A DNA stretch of 64,000 nucleotides from Maricaulis sp. Its GTDB lineage: Bacteria > Pseudomonadota > Alphaproteobacteria > Caulobacterales > Maricaulaceae. A program made the position numbers and the translations under genes. The stretch is taken from positions 1 to 64,000 of the forward strand of contig NZ_JAEPOL010000016.1 in the NCBI RefSeq assembly GCF_017642925.1, in the 5' to 3' direction. This document shows positions 31,359 to 38,014 of the stretch, piece by piece (the first letter of the stretch is position 1; every line of letters begins with the position of its first letter). The notes beneath the pieces are model-generated. The model saw nothing but the letters and a program-made list of their open reading frames with translations, made no database searches and was not told where the DNA came from.

Positions 31359-31979
31359 ATGCCTGCTGCCGCCCGCAAGAAAGCCGTCGCACCGCGCGCC
31401 TGGCAGCGCATGATTTCCGGCCGCCGGCTCGACCTGCTCGACCCCTCGCCCTTCGACGTGGAGATCGAGGACATCGCCCACGGCCTGGCCCGCGTCGCCC
31501 GCTGGAACGGGCAGACCCATGGCGATCATGCCTTTTCCGTCGCCGAACACTCGGTCGTCGTGCTCGATATTCTCGATCACCTCTATCCGGACCTGGAACA
31601 GAAATGGCGCCTCGCCGCCCTGCTGCACGACGCCTCGGAATACGTGATCGGCGACATGATCAGCCCGTTCAAGGCCGCACTGGGCGTGAACTACCGCGAG
31701 TTCGAGGACCGGCTGGAAGCGGCCATCCATCTGCGTTTCGGCCTGCCGCCGAAACTGCCCAGGGAAACCAAGCGCAAGATCAAGCGGGCCGATGTGATCT
31801 GCGCCTATTTCGAGGCGACCCAGATTGCCGGCTTCAGCCATGACGAGTCGCTGAAATTCTTTGGCCGCCCGCCGGGCGAGCTGGAAATCGAGATCGTGCC
31901 GAAATCGGTGAAACAGGCCCAGATCCTTTTCCTCGACCGTTTCGAGACGGTGCTGGGCCAGTTCGAAGGACGGCGCTGA
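31359..31979 (+). CDS. HD-domain (YfbR-like) phosphohydrolase
   Basis: 206 residues. HGDHAFSVAEHSVVVLDIL supplies the first His ligands and LAALLHDASEYVIGDM the HD pair, with Asp later in KRADVICAY: the metal site of YfbR-like 5'-nucleotidases. ISGRRLDLLDPSPFDVEIEDIAHGLARVARWNG is characteristic of this branch. The stop overlaps the ATG of the next gene, a Nudix/winged-helix regulator, by one base, which points to a shared role in nucleotide or NAD turnover. Confidence 0.85.
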   Translation: MPAAARKKAVAPRAWQRMISGRRLDLLDPSPFDVEIEDIAHGLARVARWNGQTHGDHAFSVAEHSVVVLDILDHLYPDLEQKWRLAALLHDASEYVIGDMISPFKAALGVNYREFEDRLEAAIHLRFGLPPKLPRETKRKIKRADVICAYFEATQIAGFSHDESLKFFGRPPGELEIEIVPKSVKQAQILFLDRFETVLGQFEGRR

Positions 31980-32950
31980 TGCAGCCGGCCGGCCAGTCGA
32001 TCTCCGTCGGTCTGAACGCGGTCATTCTCTCGGTCGACGGCGACACGCCGCAGCTTCTCATCGTGCCGCAGGAAGGCGGCGGGGTCGCCCTGCCCTTCGG
32101 TCCGTTCGATCCCGCCCGGCACCGCACGTTCGAGATCGGTCTGCGCCGCTGGGTGGCCGAACAGGCCCACTTCCAGCTGGGCTATGTGGAACAGCTCTAC
32201 ACTTTCGGCGATCGCGGCCGCGAGGCGCCGGTTGCCGCGATGACAGGTTCCGAGGACGCCCGCATCGTGTCGATCGGCTATCTCGCCCTGACGCCCGACA
32301 AGAGCACCCCGCCCGATGGCGGCGGACGCTGGCGCGGCTGGTATGATTTCTTCCCCTGGGAAGACTGGCGCGACGGCAAGCCGGCGCTGATCGAGGCCGA
32401 GATCATTCCGCGCCTGTCAGCCTGGGCCGACGAAGCCGGCGTGCCCGGCCGCCGGGCCTCGCGCCACGACCGGTTGAAAACCGTTTTCGGTGTCGGCGGC
32501 GGCGGATGGAACGAGGAACGCGTGCTCGACCGCTACGAGCTGCTCTACGAAGCCGGGCTTGTCGCCGAGGCGGCGCGCGACGGCCAGGTGGAAAACCCGT
32601 CGCAATGCCCGGCCTTCGGCTTGTCCATGGCCTCGGATCACCGGCGCATCCTGGCGACGGCGATCTCGCGCCTGCGCGGCAAGATCAAATACCGCCCCAT
32701 CGTCTTCGAGCTGATGCCCGACCTTTTTACACTTTCCGCACTGCAACAGGTGGTCGAGGCTATTGCAGGATACCGGCTTCACAAGCAGAACTTCCGCCGC
32801 GCGCTGGACCGCACGGGATTCGTCGAGGGGACGGGCCGGATGGAAAGCCGTACGGGCGGGCGGCCGGCCGAACTTTTCCGTTACCGCCGCGAAGCACTGG
32901 CGGGCCTGCCCTCGCTGGGCCTGGCCATTCCCAGGTTGCGTGACGGGTAA
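31979..32950 (+). CDS. NrtR/NadQ-type Nudix-winged-helix regulator of NAD synthesis
   Basis: 323 residues. The N-terminal ~150 residues follow the Nudix fold seen in NrtR-like regulators (SVGLNAVILSVDGDTPQLLIV, then LRRWVAEQAHFQLGYVEQLYTFGD) but lack a normal Nudix catalytic box, so it probably senses rather than hydrolyses an NAD-related nucleotide. The C-terminal half (LFTLSALQQVVEAI, KQNFRRALDRTGFVEGTG, GRPAELFRYR) is the winged helix of this regulator family. The gene lies ~1.6 kb upstream of nadA, whose promoter holds three matching palindromes. Role as repressor of nadABC is inferred from family and context. Confidence 0.86.
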   Translation: MQPAGQSISVGLNAVILSVDGDTPQLLIVPQEGGGVALPFGPFDPARHRTFEIGLRRWVAEQAHFQLGYVEQLYTFGDRGREAPVAAMTGSEDARIVSIGYLALTPDKSTPPDGGGRWRGWYDFFPWEDWRDGKPALIEAEIIPRLSAWADEAGVPGRRASRHDRLKTVFGVGGGGWNEERVLDRYELLYEAGLVAEAARDGQVENPSQCPAFGLSMASDHRRILATAISRLRGKIKYRPIVFELMPDLFTLSALQQVVEAIAGYRLHKQNFRRALDRTGFVEGTGRMESRTGGRPAELFRYRREALAGLPSLGLAIPRLRDG

Positions 32951-33005
32951 TTTGTGTTGCAGCTGAGAGTTGTTCAGGCTTAGAATGCAGGCGTCTGACG
33001 ACAGT

Positions 33006-33353
33006 ATGAGTACACTGAGGGGGTACGTTTTGAGCGGGACGGCTATCCGTAACGCCTTTTTGGCTTTTGCGATTTGCGCTGCCATTGTGCTCGCCTTGCG
33101 GCTGATTGCTGCCGAACTCTACCTGCCCGTCATTCCCGTAATTCTCGTCGTGGCTGCCATCGTCGCCGTCATCCCCAGAAACCGGCTGATCCAGGTCCAG
33201 ATCCTGGTCCCTGCCGCGCTCGGCGTGGCTGCGGTCGAAGTGCTGATGGTCAACGGCATCCCGCTGGCACCGGCTTTTGCCCTGGCCCTGGCCCTGGCTT
33301 CGCTGGGCACCGGCGTCTGGCTGTCCGGCCTGCGCCCCCGCACCGCACACTGA
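33006..33353 (+). CDS. Small integral membrane protein
   Basis: 115 residues with three or four hydrophobic helices (AFLAFAICAAIVLALRLIAA, LPVIPVILVVAAIVAVIP, a third around ILVPAALGVAAVEVLMV, and a fourth). No family recognised. The start is uncertain: ATG at 33006 has a weak ribosome site, while an in-frame TTG at 33030 is preceded by GAGGGGG at a good distance. Placed between the NAD regulator and nadA, but nadA has its own promoter. Confidence 0.6.
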   Translation: MSTLRGYVLSGTAIRNAFLAFAICAAIVLALRLIAAELYLPVIPVILVVAAIVAVIPRNRLIQVQILVPAALGVAAVEVLMVNGIPLAPAFALALALASLGTGVWLSGLRPRTAH

Positions 33354-33406
33354 TCACCTTCATTCCGGAATTCGCACGGCGAGGCATCGCGTCGCACGCC
33401 TGTGCC

Positions 33407-33524
33407 TTGCACTGTGCTCAGGGTGAGCATATATACGGATCACGTTAAAGCTCATTTCGAGCATAAGGGCGGCACCGGAAAACAGCCGCCCATTTTCGGG
33501 CCCCAATATTGCTCACATTGAGCA
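33407..33524 (+). promoter_or_regulatory. nadA promoter with three operator palindromes
   Basis: -35 TTGCAC (33407-33412), exactly 17 bases, -10 TATATA (33430-33435). Site 1 TGCTCAGGGTGAGCA (33415-33429) fits between them. Site 2 AGCTCATTTCGAGCA (33449-33463, two mismatches) covers the region just after the expected start. Site 3 TGCTCACATTGAGCA (33510-33524) ends six bases before the AGGAGA ribosome site of nadA. All share the form TGCTCA-3-TGAGCA. The nearby Nudix/winged-helix protein is the obvious candidate ligand. Confidence 0.85.
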
Positions 33525-33538
33525 AAAGGGAGGAGAGA

Positions 33539-34648
33539 ATGGACCGATTGAACTGGGACGGCACGCCTGAAGGCTTTGAACAGTCCCGGCCGGAACTGGC
33601 GTATACGGATGAGGTCAAGGCCGCGACGGACCATCTCTACGAGAAGGTGAAGGACATCATCACCCCGATGGAATGGCCGGCCAAGGCGCCGCTGATCCAT
33701 GCCATCAACCAGCTGAAGGCGGAAAAGAACGCCGTCATTCTCGCCCACAACTACATGACCGCCGACATTTTCCACTGCGTCGGCGATCTGATGGGTGACA
33801 GCCTGGCCCTGGCCCGCATGGCCGCCGAGAGCGAGGCCGACATCATCGTCCAGGCCGGCGTCCACTTCATGGCCGAGACCGCCAAGGTGCTCGCGCCGGA
33901 GAAGAAAGTGCTGATCCCCGACACCCGCGCCGGCTGCTCCCTCGCCTCCTCGATCACCGGCGAGGATGTGCGCCGCATCAAGGCTACCTATCCCGGCGTG
34001 CCCGTCGTCACCTATGTGAACACCTCGGCCGATGTGAAGGCCGAGTGCGATATCTGCTGCACCTCCTCCAATGCCGTACAGGTCGTCGAGAGCCTGGGCG
34101 CCGACACGGTGATCCTGCTGCCCGACCAGTATCTCGCCAAGAATGTCGCCGCCCAGACCGATGTGCGCATTCTCACCTGGGCCGGCAGCTGCGAAGTGCA
34201 CGAGAAATTCACCGCCCAGGACGTGCAGGACCTGCGCGACGCCCATCCCGGCGTGCTGATCATCACCCACCCGGAAAGCCCGCTGGAGGTGGTCCAGGCT
34301 GCCGACTATGCCGGCTCCACCGCCGCCATGGCCGACTATGCCCGCAATTCCGGAGCGAAGAAGGCCGTGCTGCTGACCGAGTGCTCGATGAGCGACAATG
34401 TCGCCGTCGAAGTGCCCGAGGTGCAGTTCATCCGGCCGTGCAATCTGTGCCCGCACATGAAGCGGATCACGCTGGAAAACATCTATGACTGCCTGCGTCT
34501 GGAACAGCACGAAGTGACCGTGCCCGACGATGTGATCGACGGCGCCCGCCGCTCCGTCCAGGCCATGCTCGACCTGCCCAAGCCCGACAAGCCCGCCAGC
34601 TTCGACCCGGCCAAGCAGGAAAAGCCCGTGGACCTGGTCTCGATCTAG
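33539..34648 (+). CDS. nadA: Quinolinate synthase
   Basis: 369 residues, matching the NadA length. The three [4Fe-4S] cysteines lie in AGCSLASSI, DICCTSSNA and PCNLCPHMKRI. VILAHNYMTADIFHCVGDLMGDSLALA is the N-terminal substrate segment. It condenses iminoaspartate with dihydroxyacetone phosphate to quinolinate, the second step of de novo NAD synthesis. AGGAGA is directly upstream. It heads the cluster nadA, chimeric gene, nadB, nadC. Confidence 0.96.
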   Translation: MDRLNWDGTPEGFEQSRPELAYTDEVKAATDHLYEKVKDIITPMEWPAKAPLIHAINQLKAEKNAVILAHNYMTADIFHCVGDLMGDSLALARMAAESEADIIVQAGVHFMAETAKVLAPEKKVLIPDTRAGCSLASSITGEDVRRIKATYPGVPVVTYVNTSADVKAECDICCTSSNAVQVVESLGADTVILLPDQYLAKNVAAQTDVRILTWAGSCEVHEKFTAQDVQDLRDAHPGVLIITHPESPLEVVQAADYAGSTAAMADYARNSGAKKAVLLTECSMSDNVAVEVPEVQFIRPCNLCPHMKRITLENIYDCLRLEQHEVTVPDDVIDGARRSVQAMLDLPKPDKPASFDPAKQEKPVDLVSI

Positions 34649-34656
34649 GAGGACGG

Positions 34657-34712
34657 CCATGACCCGTCCCGTCCTCATCTGCGGCGCCGGGATTGCGGGG
34701 CTGTGGGCGGCG
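34657..34712 (+). repeat. 56-bp direct repeat, left copy (original nadB start)
   Basis: Identical over 56 bases to 35631-35686. Comprises CC followed by the first 18 codons of nadB. This copy keeps the AGGAGG ribosome site behind nadA, so it is probably the original nadB start position. Confidence 0.95.
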
Positions 34713-35636
34713 TTCCAGTTGACTCTGGCCACGCCAGCTCAGGCCTACGTCGCTCCGGCTGAACACTCCGTGCCGTCTGAAGCATCGTGTCCGCGGCATC
34801 CAGAAGATTCACGCCCGCAACCATCCGACTTCGACGAACTGTTCATCACTCTGCCAGAACTCGCACCGGTGCTGTCTGACGACAGCATCCATTGTCGACA
34901 TGTCGTCCTTCAGGGACACTTCCGCGCCGGACATCGCGACGGCTATGCCGGAAGCCTCTACTCGAGTGTCGCCGCAGCCTATGCGGACAGCCCGGCCCGC
35001 CCCGCGGACGTGGTCGCCGTTTTCGCCTTCGAGGATCCATTTCAAAGCTTCGCGTTGAACGGTGCGACGCTTACGCTGGCGGGGTATGCGCACCCGGTCT
35101 GCCTCCCGAACAGTTTGAACCCGGCGCCCCGCACGGCCCGGGACACGATCGGGTCATCGCATCTGCAATGCCGGGAGGGTGAACACCTCGAGTGGGGGCT
35201 GGAGCACCCGACTGTCGTCAGCGTCGACACGCTTCCCGGTCAGTTCCTGACGGGCGAATCCCGCCGGGATACCGTTGGTCAGCTGCGTCGAATTGAAATG
35301 ACGCCGAGTGCACAGCAGGAAATCGAGATCATCTGGTCCGACTTTGTCCTCGCCCTTCCTTCGTTCACAGATGATCAGACCCCAGCCTGGGATCATTTTC
35401 TCGCGCATTCGGAACTTTCTCCTCTCCGAACGCGCGAATTTGCTGCCGCCTCACAGAGCGTGGTTCTATTTGAGCCGCTTGCGCCAGGCGCAGACCCTGA
35501 CAGGACGATCACCTGTTTGTGCACAACAAGCGACTGCTCCGACAGTTGGCCACTCTTTGAAATCGATACCCGGTACGCATTCCGGGAGTTCGTTTGCATG
35601 GACCTGTATGGCTCTCCGACTGGAGAGCATCCATGA
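34659..35636 (+). CDS. Chimeric secreted protein with captured nadB leader
   Basis: 325 residues. Codons 1-18 (MTRPVLICGAGIAGLWAA) are identical in DNA to the start of nadB; from residue 19 the sequence is unrelated and begins FQLTLATPAQA, a textbook signal-peptidase site. Together they make a convincing Sec signal peptide (basic Arg3, hydrophobic core, AQA cut). The mature ~295 residues contain eight cysteines (SEASC, IHC, PVC, LQC, CLC, SDC, FVC), consistent with a disulfide-bonded exported protein. No family recognised. The DNA is visibly lower in GC than nadA and nadB. The stop (TGA) overlaps the nadB start (ATGA). Expression from the nad operon is expected; function unknown. Confidence 0.72.
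   Translation: MTRPVLICGAGIAGLWAAFQLTLATPAQAYVAPAEHSVPSEASCPRHPEDSRPQPSDFDELFITLPELAPVLSDDSIHCRHVVLQGHFRAGHRDGYAGSLYSSVAAAYADSPARPADVVAVFAFEDPFQSFALNGATLTLAGYAHPVCLPNSLNPAPRTARDTIGSSHLQCREGEHLEWGLEHPTVVSVDTLPGQFLTGESRRDTVGQLRRIEMTPSAQQEIEIIWSDFVLALPSFTDDQTPAWDHFLAHSELSPLRTREFAAASQSVVLFEPLAPGADPDRTITCLCTTSDCSDSWPLFEIDTRYAFREFVCMDLYGSPTGEHP
34713..35630 (+). other. 918-bp insert between nadA and nadB
   Basis: Unique DNA lying between the two 56-bp copies of the nadB start, giving a 974-bp duplication period. Two 60-base lines counted by hand (35341-35460) are 52% and 60% G+C, against 77% for one line inside nadB (35881-35940). No transposase, terminal inverted repeats or short target duplication are seen, so it is not a normal insertion sequence. 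Confidence 0.8.
35611..35628 (+). promoter_or_regulatory. Hairpin holding the nadB ribosome-binding site
   Basis: GCTCTCC-GACT-GGAGAGC is a perfect 7-bp stem with a four-base loop. Its right arm GGAGAG is the only Shine-Dalgarno candidate for nadB, whose ATG is at 35633. Ribosomes finishing the chimeric gene would open the stem and stop on the overlapping ATGA, so nadB translation is probably coupled to it. Confidence 0.7.
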
Positions 35637-35686
35637 CCCGTCCCGTCCTCATCTGCGGCGCCGGGATTGCGGGGCTGTGGGCGGCG
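35631..35686 (+). repeat. 56-bp direct repeat, right copy (current nadB start)
   Basis: Perfect copy of 34657-34712, including all wobble positions, which implies a recent event or ongoing conversion. Sequence before and after the 56 bases differs from the left copy. Confidence 0.95.
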
Positions 35687-37159
35687 CTGAAGCTGGCGCC
35701 GCGGCCAGTCGTGCTGCTAACCGGGGCGCCGCTGGGTGAAGGCGCAGCCTCCGGCTGGGCCCAGGGCGGAGTCGCGGCCGCGCTGGCGGACGATGACAGC
35801 GCCGCCCTGCACACCGCCGACACGGTCACCGCCGGTGCCGGACTGGTCGACGCGGATGCGGCACGGGCACTGGCCGAAGGTGCGGCGCAGGAAGTCCGCG
35901 AGCTTGCCGCCCTGGGCGCGCCTTTCGAGCGGCGGGGCGAGGCCTGGTCGCTCTCCCGCGAAGCCGCCCATGCCCGCCACCGGGTTGCCCGGGTGAAGGG
36001 CGACGGCGCCGGGGCCGCGATCATGTCCACCCTGATCGCCGCCGTGCGCCGGGCGCCGCACATCGAGATCCGCAATGGCTGGAAAGCCGCCGCCCTGCTG
36101 GGCGATGCTGCCGGCTGTACCGGCGTGCTGGCCCGCTCGCCGGACGGGCAAACCGAAGCGATCGAAGCCGGAGCCACCATCCTCGCCATGGGCGGGGCGG
36201 GCGGCCTGTTTGCACTCACCACCACACCGGCCGGCGCCCAGGGCCAGGCCATGGCGATGGCGGCACGCCTGGGCGCGGTGATCCAGGATCCGGAATTCGT
36301 CCAGTTTCACCCGACCGCCCTCAATGCCGGTCTCGATCCGGCACCGCTGTGCACCGAGGCCCTGCGCGGCGAAGGCGCGACCCTGGTCGACCGCACGGGC
36401 CACCGTTTCATGAAAGCCGTCCACGCCGATGCCGAACTCGCCCCGCGCGATGTCGTCGCCCGGGCGGTGCACCGGCAGAACCTCTCCGGCAAGGGCGCTT
36501 TCCTCGATTGCCGCACCGCGATCGGCGCGGCTTTCCCGGAGGAATTCCCTGCCGTTTTCGCGGCTTGCATGCAGGCCGGTATCGATCCGCGCCGCGAACT
36601 TATCCCCGTCGCCCCCACAGCCCATTATCATATGGGCGGAGTGATGACCGATATCGACGGAGCGACCAGCATCCCAGGCCTCTATGCCATCGGCGAATGC
36701 GCCTCGACGGGCCTGCACGGCGCCAACCGTCTCGCCTCCAACTCGCTGGCCGAGGGCCTGGTGAGTGCGGCACGGGTGGCCAGGGCTCTGCCGGAGCGCA
36801 AGTCCAGCGGCAATGCCGTTGCGCCGGCGCCGGACCTTCCGCCCGAACTTCCCGCCGACGCACTCGCGACACTCCGCGCCGCCATGAGCCGGGCCTGCGG
36901 TGTGGAGCGGAATGGTGGCGCTATGGTGCAGCTATGTGACCTCATTGATGGTCTTGTGCGCACACATGGTGACGCGGATGCATTGCTTGCGGCACGCTTC
37001 ATCGTCACCGGCGCCCTCAACCGGAATGAAAGCCGGGGCGGGCATTTCCGCACCGATTGCCCCGCCACCGACACCGTGGCACAGCATAGCCGGATGACCC
37101 TGGCCGACCTTGCCGCCAGCACCACCAGTCCGGCCCGCTACCGCGAACCTGCCGAATAG
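35633..37159 (+). CDS. nadB: L-aspartate oxidase
   Basis: 508 residues, full family length. FAD-binding GAGIAGLWAA at the N-terminus, SGWAQGGVAAAL, FVQFHPTAL, the catalytic-region PTAHYHMGGV and ANRLASNSLAEGLV are all present. It oxidises aspartate to iminoaspartate, which NadA uses. The gene is intact despite the insert: its start overlaps the stop of the chimeric gene and its ribosome site comes from the inserted DNA. nadC follows six bases after its stop. Confidence 0.95.
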   Translation: MTRPVLICGAGIAGLWAALKLAPRPVVLLTGAPLGEGAASGWAQGGVAAALADDDSAALHTADTVTAGAGLVDADAARALAEGAAQEVRELAALGAPFERRGEAWSLSREAAHARHRVARVKGDGAGAAIMSTLIAAVRRAPHIEIRNGWKAAALLGDAAGCTGVLARSPDGQTEAIEAGATILAMGGAGGLFALTTTPAGAQGQAMAMAARLGAVIQDPEFVQFHPTALNAGLDPAPLCTEALRGEGATLVDRTGHRFMKAVHADAELAPRDVVARAVHRQNLSGKGAFLDCRTAIGAAFPEEFPAVFAACMQAGIDPRRELIPVAPTAHYHMGGVMTDIDGATSIPGLYAIGECASTGLHGANRLASNSLAEGLVSAARVARALPERKSSGNAVAPAPDLPPELPADALATLRAAMSRACGVERNGGAMVQLCDLIDGLVRTHGDADALLAARFIVTGALNRNESRGGHFRTDCPATDTVAQHSRMTLADLAASTTSPARYREPAE

Positions 37160-37165
37160 GACGCC

Positions 37166-38014
37166 ATGCCCGTTTCTCCCCTGCCCCGCTTCGTCGTCAC
37201 CGACGCCGTCACCCGTGCCTTCGCCGAAGACCAGGGCGGCCGCGGCGACGTGACATCGCTGGCCTGCATCCCGGAAATCCAGGAGGCGAAATTCTATTTC
37301 GTCGCCCGCGAAGCCGGTGTGATCTGCGGCCTGCAGCCGGCCGTGGAGGCGATCTGGCAGATGGATCCGGACGCGCTGGTGAATGTCCAGGTGCGCGATG
37401 GCGACACCGTGAAGGCCGGCGACGTGCTCGCCGCCATCAACGGCCAGGCCCGTGCCCTGCTCTCGGCCGAGCGGATCGCCCTGAACTTCCTCGGCCGCAT
37501 GAGCGGCATCGCCAGTTTCACCCGCCGCTATGTCGATGCCGTCGCGGGGACGAAGGCCCGCATCGCCCACACCCGCAAGACCACGCCGGGCTTCCGCGCT
37601 TTCGAACTCCAGGCCGTCCAGGCCGGCGGCGGCGCGCTGCACCGCTACGGGCTGGATGACGCCATCCTGATCAAGGACAATCACGTCGCCGTCTGTGGCG
37701 GGGTCGCCGAGGCCGTGAAGGCCGCCCGCAACCATGCCGGCCACATGACCCGCGTCGCCGTGGAGATCGACCGGCTCGACCAGCTCGACGCCGCCATCAA
37801 TGCCGGTGCCGAAAGCGTATTGCTCGACAATTTCCCGCCCGACGATCTGCGGGCCGCCGTCGCGGCCGCCAGCGGCAAGGTCACGCTGGAGGCATCCGGC
37901 GGGGTCAATCTCGACACGGTGCGCGATATCGCGCAGACCGGTGTCGATGTAATCTCGGTGGGCGCGCTGACCCATTCGGCGCCCAATTTCGACATCGGCC
38001 TGGACGAGGCCTGA
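37166..38014 (+). CDS. nadC: Nicotinate-nucleotide pyrophosphorylase (carboxylating)
   Basis: 282 residues. Shows EDQGGRGDVTS near the N-terminus, ALNFLGRMSGIAS, the phosphoribosyl-site IAHTRKTTPGFR and LIKDNHVA, all NadC hallmarks. It converts quinolinate and PRPP to nicotinate mononucleotide, third step of the pathway. Six bases behind nadB, so co-transcribed. Confidence 0.96.
   Translation: MPVSPLPRFVVTDAVTRAFAEDQGGRGDVTSLACIPEIQEAKFYFVAREAGVICGLQPAVEAIWQMDPDALVNVQVRDGDTVKAGDVLAAINGQARALLSAERIALNFLGRMSGIASFTRRYVDAVAGTKARIAHTRKTTPGFRAFELQAVQAGGGALHRYGLDDAILIKDNHVAVCGGVAEAVKAARNHAGHMTRVAVEIDRLDQLDAAINAGAESVLLDNFPPDDLRAAVAAASGKVTLEASGGVNLDTVRDIAQTGVDVISVGALTHSAPNFDIGLDEA

Follow-up and report, generated by a model that had tools for sequence, protein, structure and literature searches.

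How a single repressor might make use of several binding sites strung between a promoter and a start codon is the question raised by the nadA locus of this Maricaulis genome. In the window (the whole stretch of 64,000 nucleotides that was analysed), the gene at 31979 stands ahead of nadA, and its product had been placed by the initial annotation in the NrtR/NadQ group of regulators. The product is similar over its full length to a solved NadQ structure, matching PDB 7q91 ("NADQ transcription factor") over residues 12-318 of 323 (E 5.6e-88). It has the domain arrangement of COG4111, an NrtR-like winged helix at the C-terminus (NrtR_WHD, PF21906, E 5.8e-20) and an N-terminal domain unlike a standard Nudix; no NUDIX domain was detected with Pfam at E 0.001. 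The gene also clusters with nadABC in the manner of nadQ genes, the four starting at 31979, 33539, 35633 and 37166. The NrtR half of the assignment falls away, as the product scores 70.8 bits against NF050029, for which the cut-off is 400. The regulator beside nadA is NadQ (COG4111; PDB 7q91-7q94), not NrtR. Leyn et al. (2016) described NadQ in alphaproteobacteria, with the motif ttATRCTCannntGAGYATaa and nadABC as targets (PMC5343134). Thus, the core of the finding is already known. The title of Minazzato et al. (2022) calls NadQ Nudix-like and ATP-responsive, and ATP should be added to the candidate ligands listed earlier (NAD, ADP-ribose and NMN).

Table 1. Features of the nadQ-nadABC region, in window coordinates
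Feature	Coordinates	Strand	Basis
nadQ, NadQ repressor (COG4111), 323 aa	31979..32950	+	PDB 7q91, Pfam NrtR_WHD
-35 element TTGCAC of the proposed nadA promoter	33407..33412	+	Sequence; CTTGC columns common to genus leaders
Distal NadQ operator TGCTCAGGGTGAGCA, perfect palindrome, in the -35/-10 spacer	33415..33429	n/a	Motif match, genus alignment
-10 element TATATA of the proposed promoter	33430..33435	+	Sequence; aligned in genus leaders
Middle (O1-type) NadQ operator AGCTCATTTCGAGCA; genus form asymmetric, RGCTCAnTTCGAGCA	33449..33463	n/a	Motif match, genus alignment
Leader stem-loop, 7-bp stem GGGCGGC/GCCGCCC, loop of 11	33467..33491	+	Fold; stems at same place in relatives
T-rich tail ATTTTC after the stem	33492..33497	+	Sequence; T-rich in 84 loci
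Proximal (O2) NadQ operator TGCTCACATTGAGCA, perfect palindrome	33510..33524	n/a	Motif match, genus comparison
Shine-Dalgarno-like GGGAGGAG	33528..33535	+	Sequence
nadA, quinolinate synthase	33539..34648	+	Pfam NadA E 5.5e-110; NF006878 above cut-off
nadB, L-aspartate oxidase	35633..37159	+	NF005701 640 bits, cut-off 528
nadC, quinolinate phosphoribosyltransferase	37166..38014	+	TIGR00078 312.8 bits, cut-off 198.4

Two side observations concern the genes around the operators. The stop codon (31977-31979) of a YfbR-like HD-domain gene (31359-31979) overlaps the nadQ ATG at 31979, which suggests that a nucleotidase-like protein is co-expressed with the NAD regulator. Between nadA and nadB lies an open reading frame (34659-35636, 325 aa) without a Pfam or NCBIfam match. 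It opens with 54 bp identical to those at the start of nadB, so that the N-terminus encoded by nadB resembles the beginning of a signal peptide. The nadA-nadB junction spans 1.06-1.58 kb in four other genus members (L077, L084, L089, L090), where it shows short, weak protein-level similarity to this frame, and 431 bp in two others (L085, L086).

Within 110 bp ahead of nadA, TGCTCAnnnTGAGCA occurs twice in perfect form and once in degenerate form. The sites had been described as three palindromes of the same form, a description that fits the outer two; the middle site has mismatches at 2 of 12 positions and retains 4 of 6 palindromic pairs. The distal operator takes up the last 15 bp of the 17-bp spacer between TTGCAC and TATATA, the position originally given to it. 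We consider the promoter reading plausible: of the 16 genus leaders in the alignment, at least 13 share the CTTGC columns, and bases adjoining the -10 element are also conserved. A consensus promoter scan of 32900-33700 returned no promoter. The predicted start site would put the middle operator at about +8 to +22.

The motif is rare elsewhere in the genome (3,612,559 bases). The exact palindrome occurs at two places, both ahead of nadA, and the extended published motif TTATGCTCAnnnTGAGCATAA, with up to three mismatches, at exactly three, again all ahead of nadA (none for a reversed-pattern control). Sites with up to two mismatches number 6 in the window against 2.24 expected, and genome-wide there are 126 two-mismatch places in all against 41 for the control. 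Four one-mismatch places elsewhere in the genome are inside long open frames, none of which is recognisable as a NAD gene by reading alone. Across the genus, 18 of 21 exact-palindrome places precede nadA, and such places occur in 16 of 19 genomes. Given that the exact palindrome and the extended motif are confined to the nadA leader, we conclude that the operator set, including its degenerate middle member, did not arise by chance; at this strictness, the genome scan proposed at the outset does not find the motif frequent at random sites. The three sites also match, within the mismatches allowed, the pattern RCTCAnnnTGAGY expected of NadQ at nad genes. No other NadQ target was found in this genome at the level of the exact palindrome, of one mismatch to it, or of the extended motif with up to three mismatches. 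NadQ sites at nadE and nadD have been reported for Caulobacterales (PMC5343134); neither was found here with the extended motif at up to three mismatches.

Comparison of presence and absence in relatives ties the operators to the regulator far better than does the window alone. In a first set, operators occur within 500 bp ahead of nadA in 47 of 47 relatives with NadQ and in none of 8 without it. Among further family members they precede nadA in 23 of 24 genomes with NadQ (the exception, G106, has a partial NadQ match) and in none of 32 without full NadQ (three of these, G093, G096 and G100, match NadQ over the C-terminal domain only, and one, L201, has just 179 bp of upstream sequence). Combined, the counts are 70 of 71 and 0 of 40, with the proviso that a few NadQ matches scored as present hold one in-frame stop. 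For the first set nadA was found in 57 of 61 genomes, and 55 besides our own were used, a fragment (G011) being left out. For the further set it was found in 100 of 116 genomes, of which 67 were new and 60 used; seven (G076, G085, G091, G094, G127, G129, G141) were excluded because they were fragmentary, lay at contig edges, contained stops or were surplus. For the further set, NadQ status was assigned by genus and checked against protein matches, which exist for every one of the 24 positives. In one genus (g7, genomes G128-G141) the NadQ-like proteins are divergent (33-40% identity) and none of four leaders has canonical operators; these proteins perhaps recognise an altered motif. The recurrence of the motif in nadA promoters of relatives, together with the 7q91 match, supports the proposal that this protein acts on the nadA sites, and NadQ is strongly supported by these comparisons as the cognate regulator of nadA. 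Beyond the family, a class survey identified NadQ in 81 of 290 genomes. From these, 60 stretches of other orders were taken, 41 of them with nadA in reach (19 were dropped), and 4 of the 41 lack an operator.

The layout of the sites differs between groups. Three operators can be aligned across sixteen genus leaders, ours included. The distal one, within the promoter spacer, is perfect in 15 of the 16; the middle one preserves its asymmetry across the genus (it is weaker in G006); and the proximal one lies ahead of the ribosome site. In the rest of the family most leaders have O1 and O2 and some have O2 alone. No third site of like strength near the promoter was found in the family outside the genus (two further-family loci have one near -390), so the distal promoter-spacer operator appears to have been gained at the level of the genus. 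Three sites are also listed for one locus from another order (L297). In the other orders, 18 of 41 loci have an O1 that overlaps the -10 element of a TTGnnn-N15-19-TAGCAT promoter. O2 is closer to the consensus than the nearest O1 in 56 of 61 nonredundant loci (worse in one, equal in four), under limits of up to two mismatches for O2 and up to three for O1 that somewhat favour the better O2 match. Such an advantage of O2 would be odd if promoter occlusion alone mattered.

The initial annotation accounted for the three sites by cooperative repression, possibly with DNA looping; helically phased operators are one form that this could take. The 95 bp from distal to proximal operator in our locus, about 9 turns, would suit this idea, as would the 34-37 bp at which the distal-middle spacing is held in the genus, a value that is probably set by promoter geometry. 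Across loci, however, the distance from the proximal site to the nearest upstream site ranges over 53-103 bp and shows no periodicity of 10.5 bp (Rayleigh R 0.21, p about 0.13, 45 loci). The best-matching upstream site gives R 0.25 and p about 0.056 (46 loci), likewise non-significant, and helical phasing was rejected. Within the family, moreover, the promoter-spacer site is limited to the genus. We therefore regard looped or phased repression as very improbable.

A feature that the initial annotation did not see, a hairpin with a T-rich tail, is located between the middle and proximal operators. The window's own inter-operator segment folds with z -1.04, unremarkable for its composition, and some relatives reach -3 to -5 (dinucleotide-preserving shuffles). 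With four Ts and an 11-nt loop, it fails an intrinsic-terminator rule that calls for a GC-rich stem, a loop of 3-8 and at least 5 T in 8, and, judged by sequence, the hairpin of the window would terminate only weakly. Relatives have a stem in the same position with quite different stem sequences, except in families f2 and f4, where no consistent stem was found. The position is nonetheless sharply defined when loci are aligned on O2. Over 53 loci (L128 omitted), the mean best-stem score peaks 19 nt before O2, at 17.8 against 7.8 for shuffled sequences (sd 0.45, max 9.2; stem-score shuffles keep mononucleotide content only). A set of 84 nonredundant loci, which includes L128, peaks at the same 19 nt (13.8, shuffle max 8.9); it was derived from 113 loci by keeping 108 (L175 and four operator-less class loci were dropped) and then removing near-duplicates. 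The 34 other-order loci within this set peak at 18 nt (12.4, shuffle max 9.5).

In many loci the tail and the pairing recur along with the position. The T fraction over the 84 loci is 0.56-0.71 at -18 to -14 before O2, and about 0.1 at -21 and -10. A joint stem-plus-T criterion picks out 44 loci and misses 40, where shuffles give a mean of 0.83 and a maximum of 3, and there are 39 different outer stems among the 44. Arms from the same locus score 20.5 (for stems chosen at a score of at least 15), as compared with 11.0 for arms exchanged between loci. Thus the arms have diverged and yet still pair. The strict terminator rule is satisfied by 20 of the 84 (shuffles, mean 0.32, max 2), 12 of these being among the 34 other-order loci. 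In a small hold-out of named loci, 3 of 7 satisfy the stem-plus-T criterion (shuffles, mean 0.06, max 2); 49 of the 80 hold-out loci had no nadA in reach, and the other 31 all have an operator, many coming from the same genomes as the earlier sets.

Several other identities for this element were considered. A known leader RNA was rejected, as the best Rfam matches score 16.6 and 12.2 bits against gathering thresholds of 50 and 42.5. Sequestration of the Shine-Dalgarno sequence is allowed by the fold of our leader; judged by eye from alignments, the pairing is not kept in all relatives, and this reading was set aside. The sole terminator-like site returned by a consensus scan is on the minus strand (33488-33501) and is different from the leader hairpin. 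None of the reports found links a terminator with a NadQ operator; the literature searched covers few subscription papers and is weak evidence of novelty. The hairpin appears to be a new part of the NadQ/nadA system.

We next consider what the hairpin is anchored to. In 52 of the 84 loci, the stem ends 18.8 nt before O2 (sd 1.13), and exactly 19 nt before it in 28. This spread is partly selected, because the 52 were chosen by a stem score of at least 15 with a tail range preset at 15-22; the less selected profiles over 53 and 84 loci peak at the same place. In our locus the distance is 18 nt. The same 52 loci vary widely in the distance from O2 to the ATG (sd 17.7) and in hairpin span (sd 6.5). 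Thus, the hairpin is tied to O2 and not to the start codon. Distances to the upstream operator are also looser, with sd 7.5 from the nearest O1 to the stem and 9.7 from O1 to O2 (45 loci). These figures supersede an O1-to-stem sd of 14.5 obtained with the best-matching upstream site, often the distal one in the genus. The stem begins 3-5 nt after O1 in 23 of 45 loci, and for this reason part of the positional lock may be to O1.

These data bear on the simplest alternative, that NadQ represses only by blocking initiation, perhaps with a simple roadblock, and that the hairpin is a NadQ-independent leader terminator or an mRNA-stabilising stem that lowers basal expression. Published NadQ control of the operon would accommodate this (PMC5343134), as would the weakness of our own hairpin. 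Further, six loci in other orders (L277, L285, L286, L297, L299, L300) have a second nadA architecture with NadQ sites 22-26 bp apart and no hairpin between them, so NadQ control does not need a hairpin. A NadQ-independent element would not, however, be expected to keep its distance to O2 while O2 drifts relative to the ATG. Nor would its rarity in NadQ-less leaders be expected: terminator-like stems (score at least 17) occur in 75% of 53 NadQ-bearing and 12% of 40 NadQ-less nadA leaders. A caveat is that leader GC differs between these groups (0.54 and 0.44, respectively), although their within-sequence z differs too (2.29 and 0.18). We regard plain repression as a serious but somewhat doubtful explanation.

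The distance to O2 takes on meaning when compared with where polymerases stop. When EcoRI E111Q stops RNA polymerase, the active site is 12-13 nt short of the recognition site (PMC3913778), and bacterial terminators release about 8 nt past the hairpin (PMC12366685). Carried over to O2, this stall distance puts the RNA 3' end 6-8 nt beyond the stem in 40 of 52 loci, close to the usual release distance and either within the T-rich tract or at its end. The leader thus has the layout expected of a roadblock-dependent terminator, in which a protein site lies one stall distance away from a hairpin with its T-rich tract. Based on this geometry and on the order of parts in RNA polymerase I terminators (below), we propose that NadQ at O2 triggers hairpin-dependent release.

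The steps would be as follows. NadQ on the distal and middle operators would occupy the core promoter (in the spacer and at about +8 to +22) and block initiation. Bound at O2, just ahead of the ribosome site, it would be a roadblock to polymerases that escape, and a blocked polymerase would halt shortly after the hairpin, its transcript ending within the T-rich tail. The hairpin would then free the halted polymerase, a form of roadblock-triggered intrinsic termination. With NadQ off the DNA, polymerase would pass the weak terminator before it could act, and nadABC would be expressed. We put at about even the chance that NadQ represses nadABC twice in this way, by promoter occlusion and by an O2 roadblock that triggers hairpin termination. 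The wider proposal, of a repressor-gated intrinsic terminator in several alphaproteobacterial orders where NadQ halts polymerase at the release point of the hairpin, so that one protein both blocks initiation and triggers termination, is made more tentatively, with a likelihood a little short of even. Roadblocking, raised initially for the distal site, finds unexpected support in the O2-locked hairpin; it would operate at the proximal operator and be coupled to an element that was not part of the original idea. Overall, the first observation of repeats before nadA was largely right and is partly confirmed, and its interpretation is partly supported.

The geometry is also open to other readings. 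If the NadQ footprint adds about 3 bp to the core (the 15-nt case), the stall in most loci would come about 4-5 nt after the stem, which is early for release. By preventing forward translocation, a roadblock can itself work against release. A hairpin placed just behind the predicted stall might bar a NadQ-blocked polymerase from sliding back, and so hold it poised, without termination, to push through or to restart quickly once NadQ departs; a review of roadblocks cites restriction of polymerase movement by a nascent hairpin. The predicted 3' end lies over T-rich sequence, however, and several other-order loci carry six or seven consecutive Ts there; this favours release over holding, and we consider the anti-backtracking role unlikely. 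In some families the hairpin loop contains TTGA, which makes a second promoter possible there, formed by the loop and T-rich element with a -10 overlapping O2; TATAnn stands at the operator edge in some loci of f5 and of other orders. No such -35 is apparent by eye in the window, in the genus or in many other hairpin loci, and the upstream TTGnnn-N15-19-TAGCAT promoter is recognisable in the other-order loci noted above. A second promoter is thus highly unlikely as a general explanation.

The repressor-triggered terminator proposed here can be placed among known systems. It shares with the published NadQ regulon the regulator family, the motif and the nadABC target; the triple-operator layout and the O2-locked leader hairpin are not mentioned in the accessible part of that report (PMC5343134). 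Repressors that act as roadblocks, including PurR, GalR, ArsR, CcpA, CodY and LacI, likewise bind DNA past the start and block elongation, and, unlike the nadA leader, are described without a dedicated fixed-distance terminator hairpin in the accessible portions of the sources (PMC10310618, PMC4132739). In RNA polymerase I terminators (Reb1, Nsi1, TTF-I), too, a hairpin is followed by a T-rich tract and then by a roadblock site, and polymerase stops 15 bp before the Reb1 site (PMC12366685). Those terminators are eukaryotic, stand at gene ends, have the hairpin about 20 nt behind the stall and involve backtracking (PMC12366685), whereas the NadQ/nadA case is bacterial, is found in a leader, uses a metabolic repressor and has its hairpin a predicted 6-8 nt behind the stall.

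Attenuators and riboswitches place a terminator hairpin between a promoter and a biosynthetic gene. The nadA leader resembles them in the position of its hairpin and differs in that no antiterminator, aptamer or leader peptide was recognised, and nothing in Rfam came near its thresholds.

In summary, the nadA leader would offer a compact and easily tested system for cooperation between a roadblock and a hairpin. The signature, a stem end about 19 nt and a T-tract 13-18 nt before an operator, can be searched for at other repressors. If the proposal is correct, the leader would be a bacterial, metabolite-controlled counterpart of the hairpin, T-tract and roadblock terminators of RNA polymerase I. 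Should the result on the hairpin stand, repressors could be linked to intrinsic terminators through spacing alone, for tight repression that leaves no stalled polymerases for Mfd or for replication to encounter.
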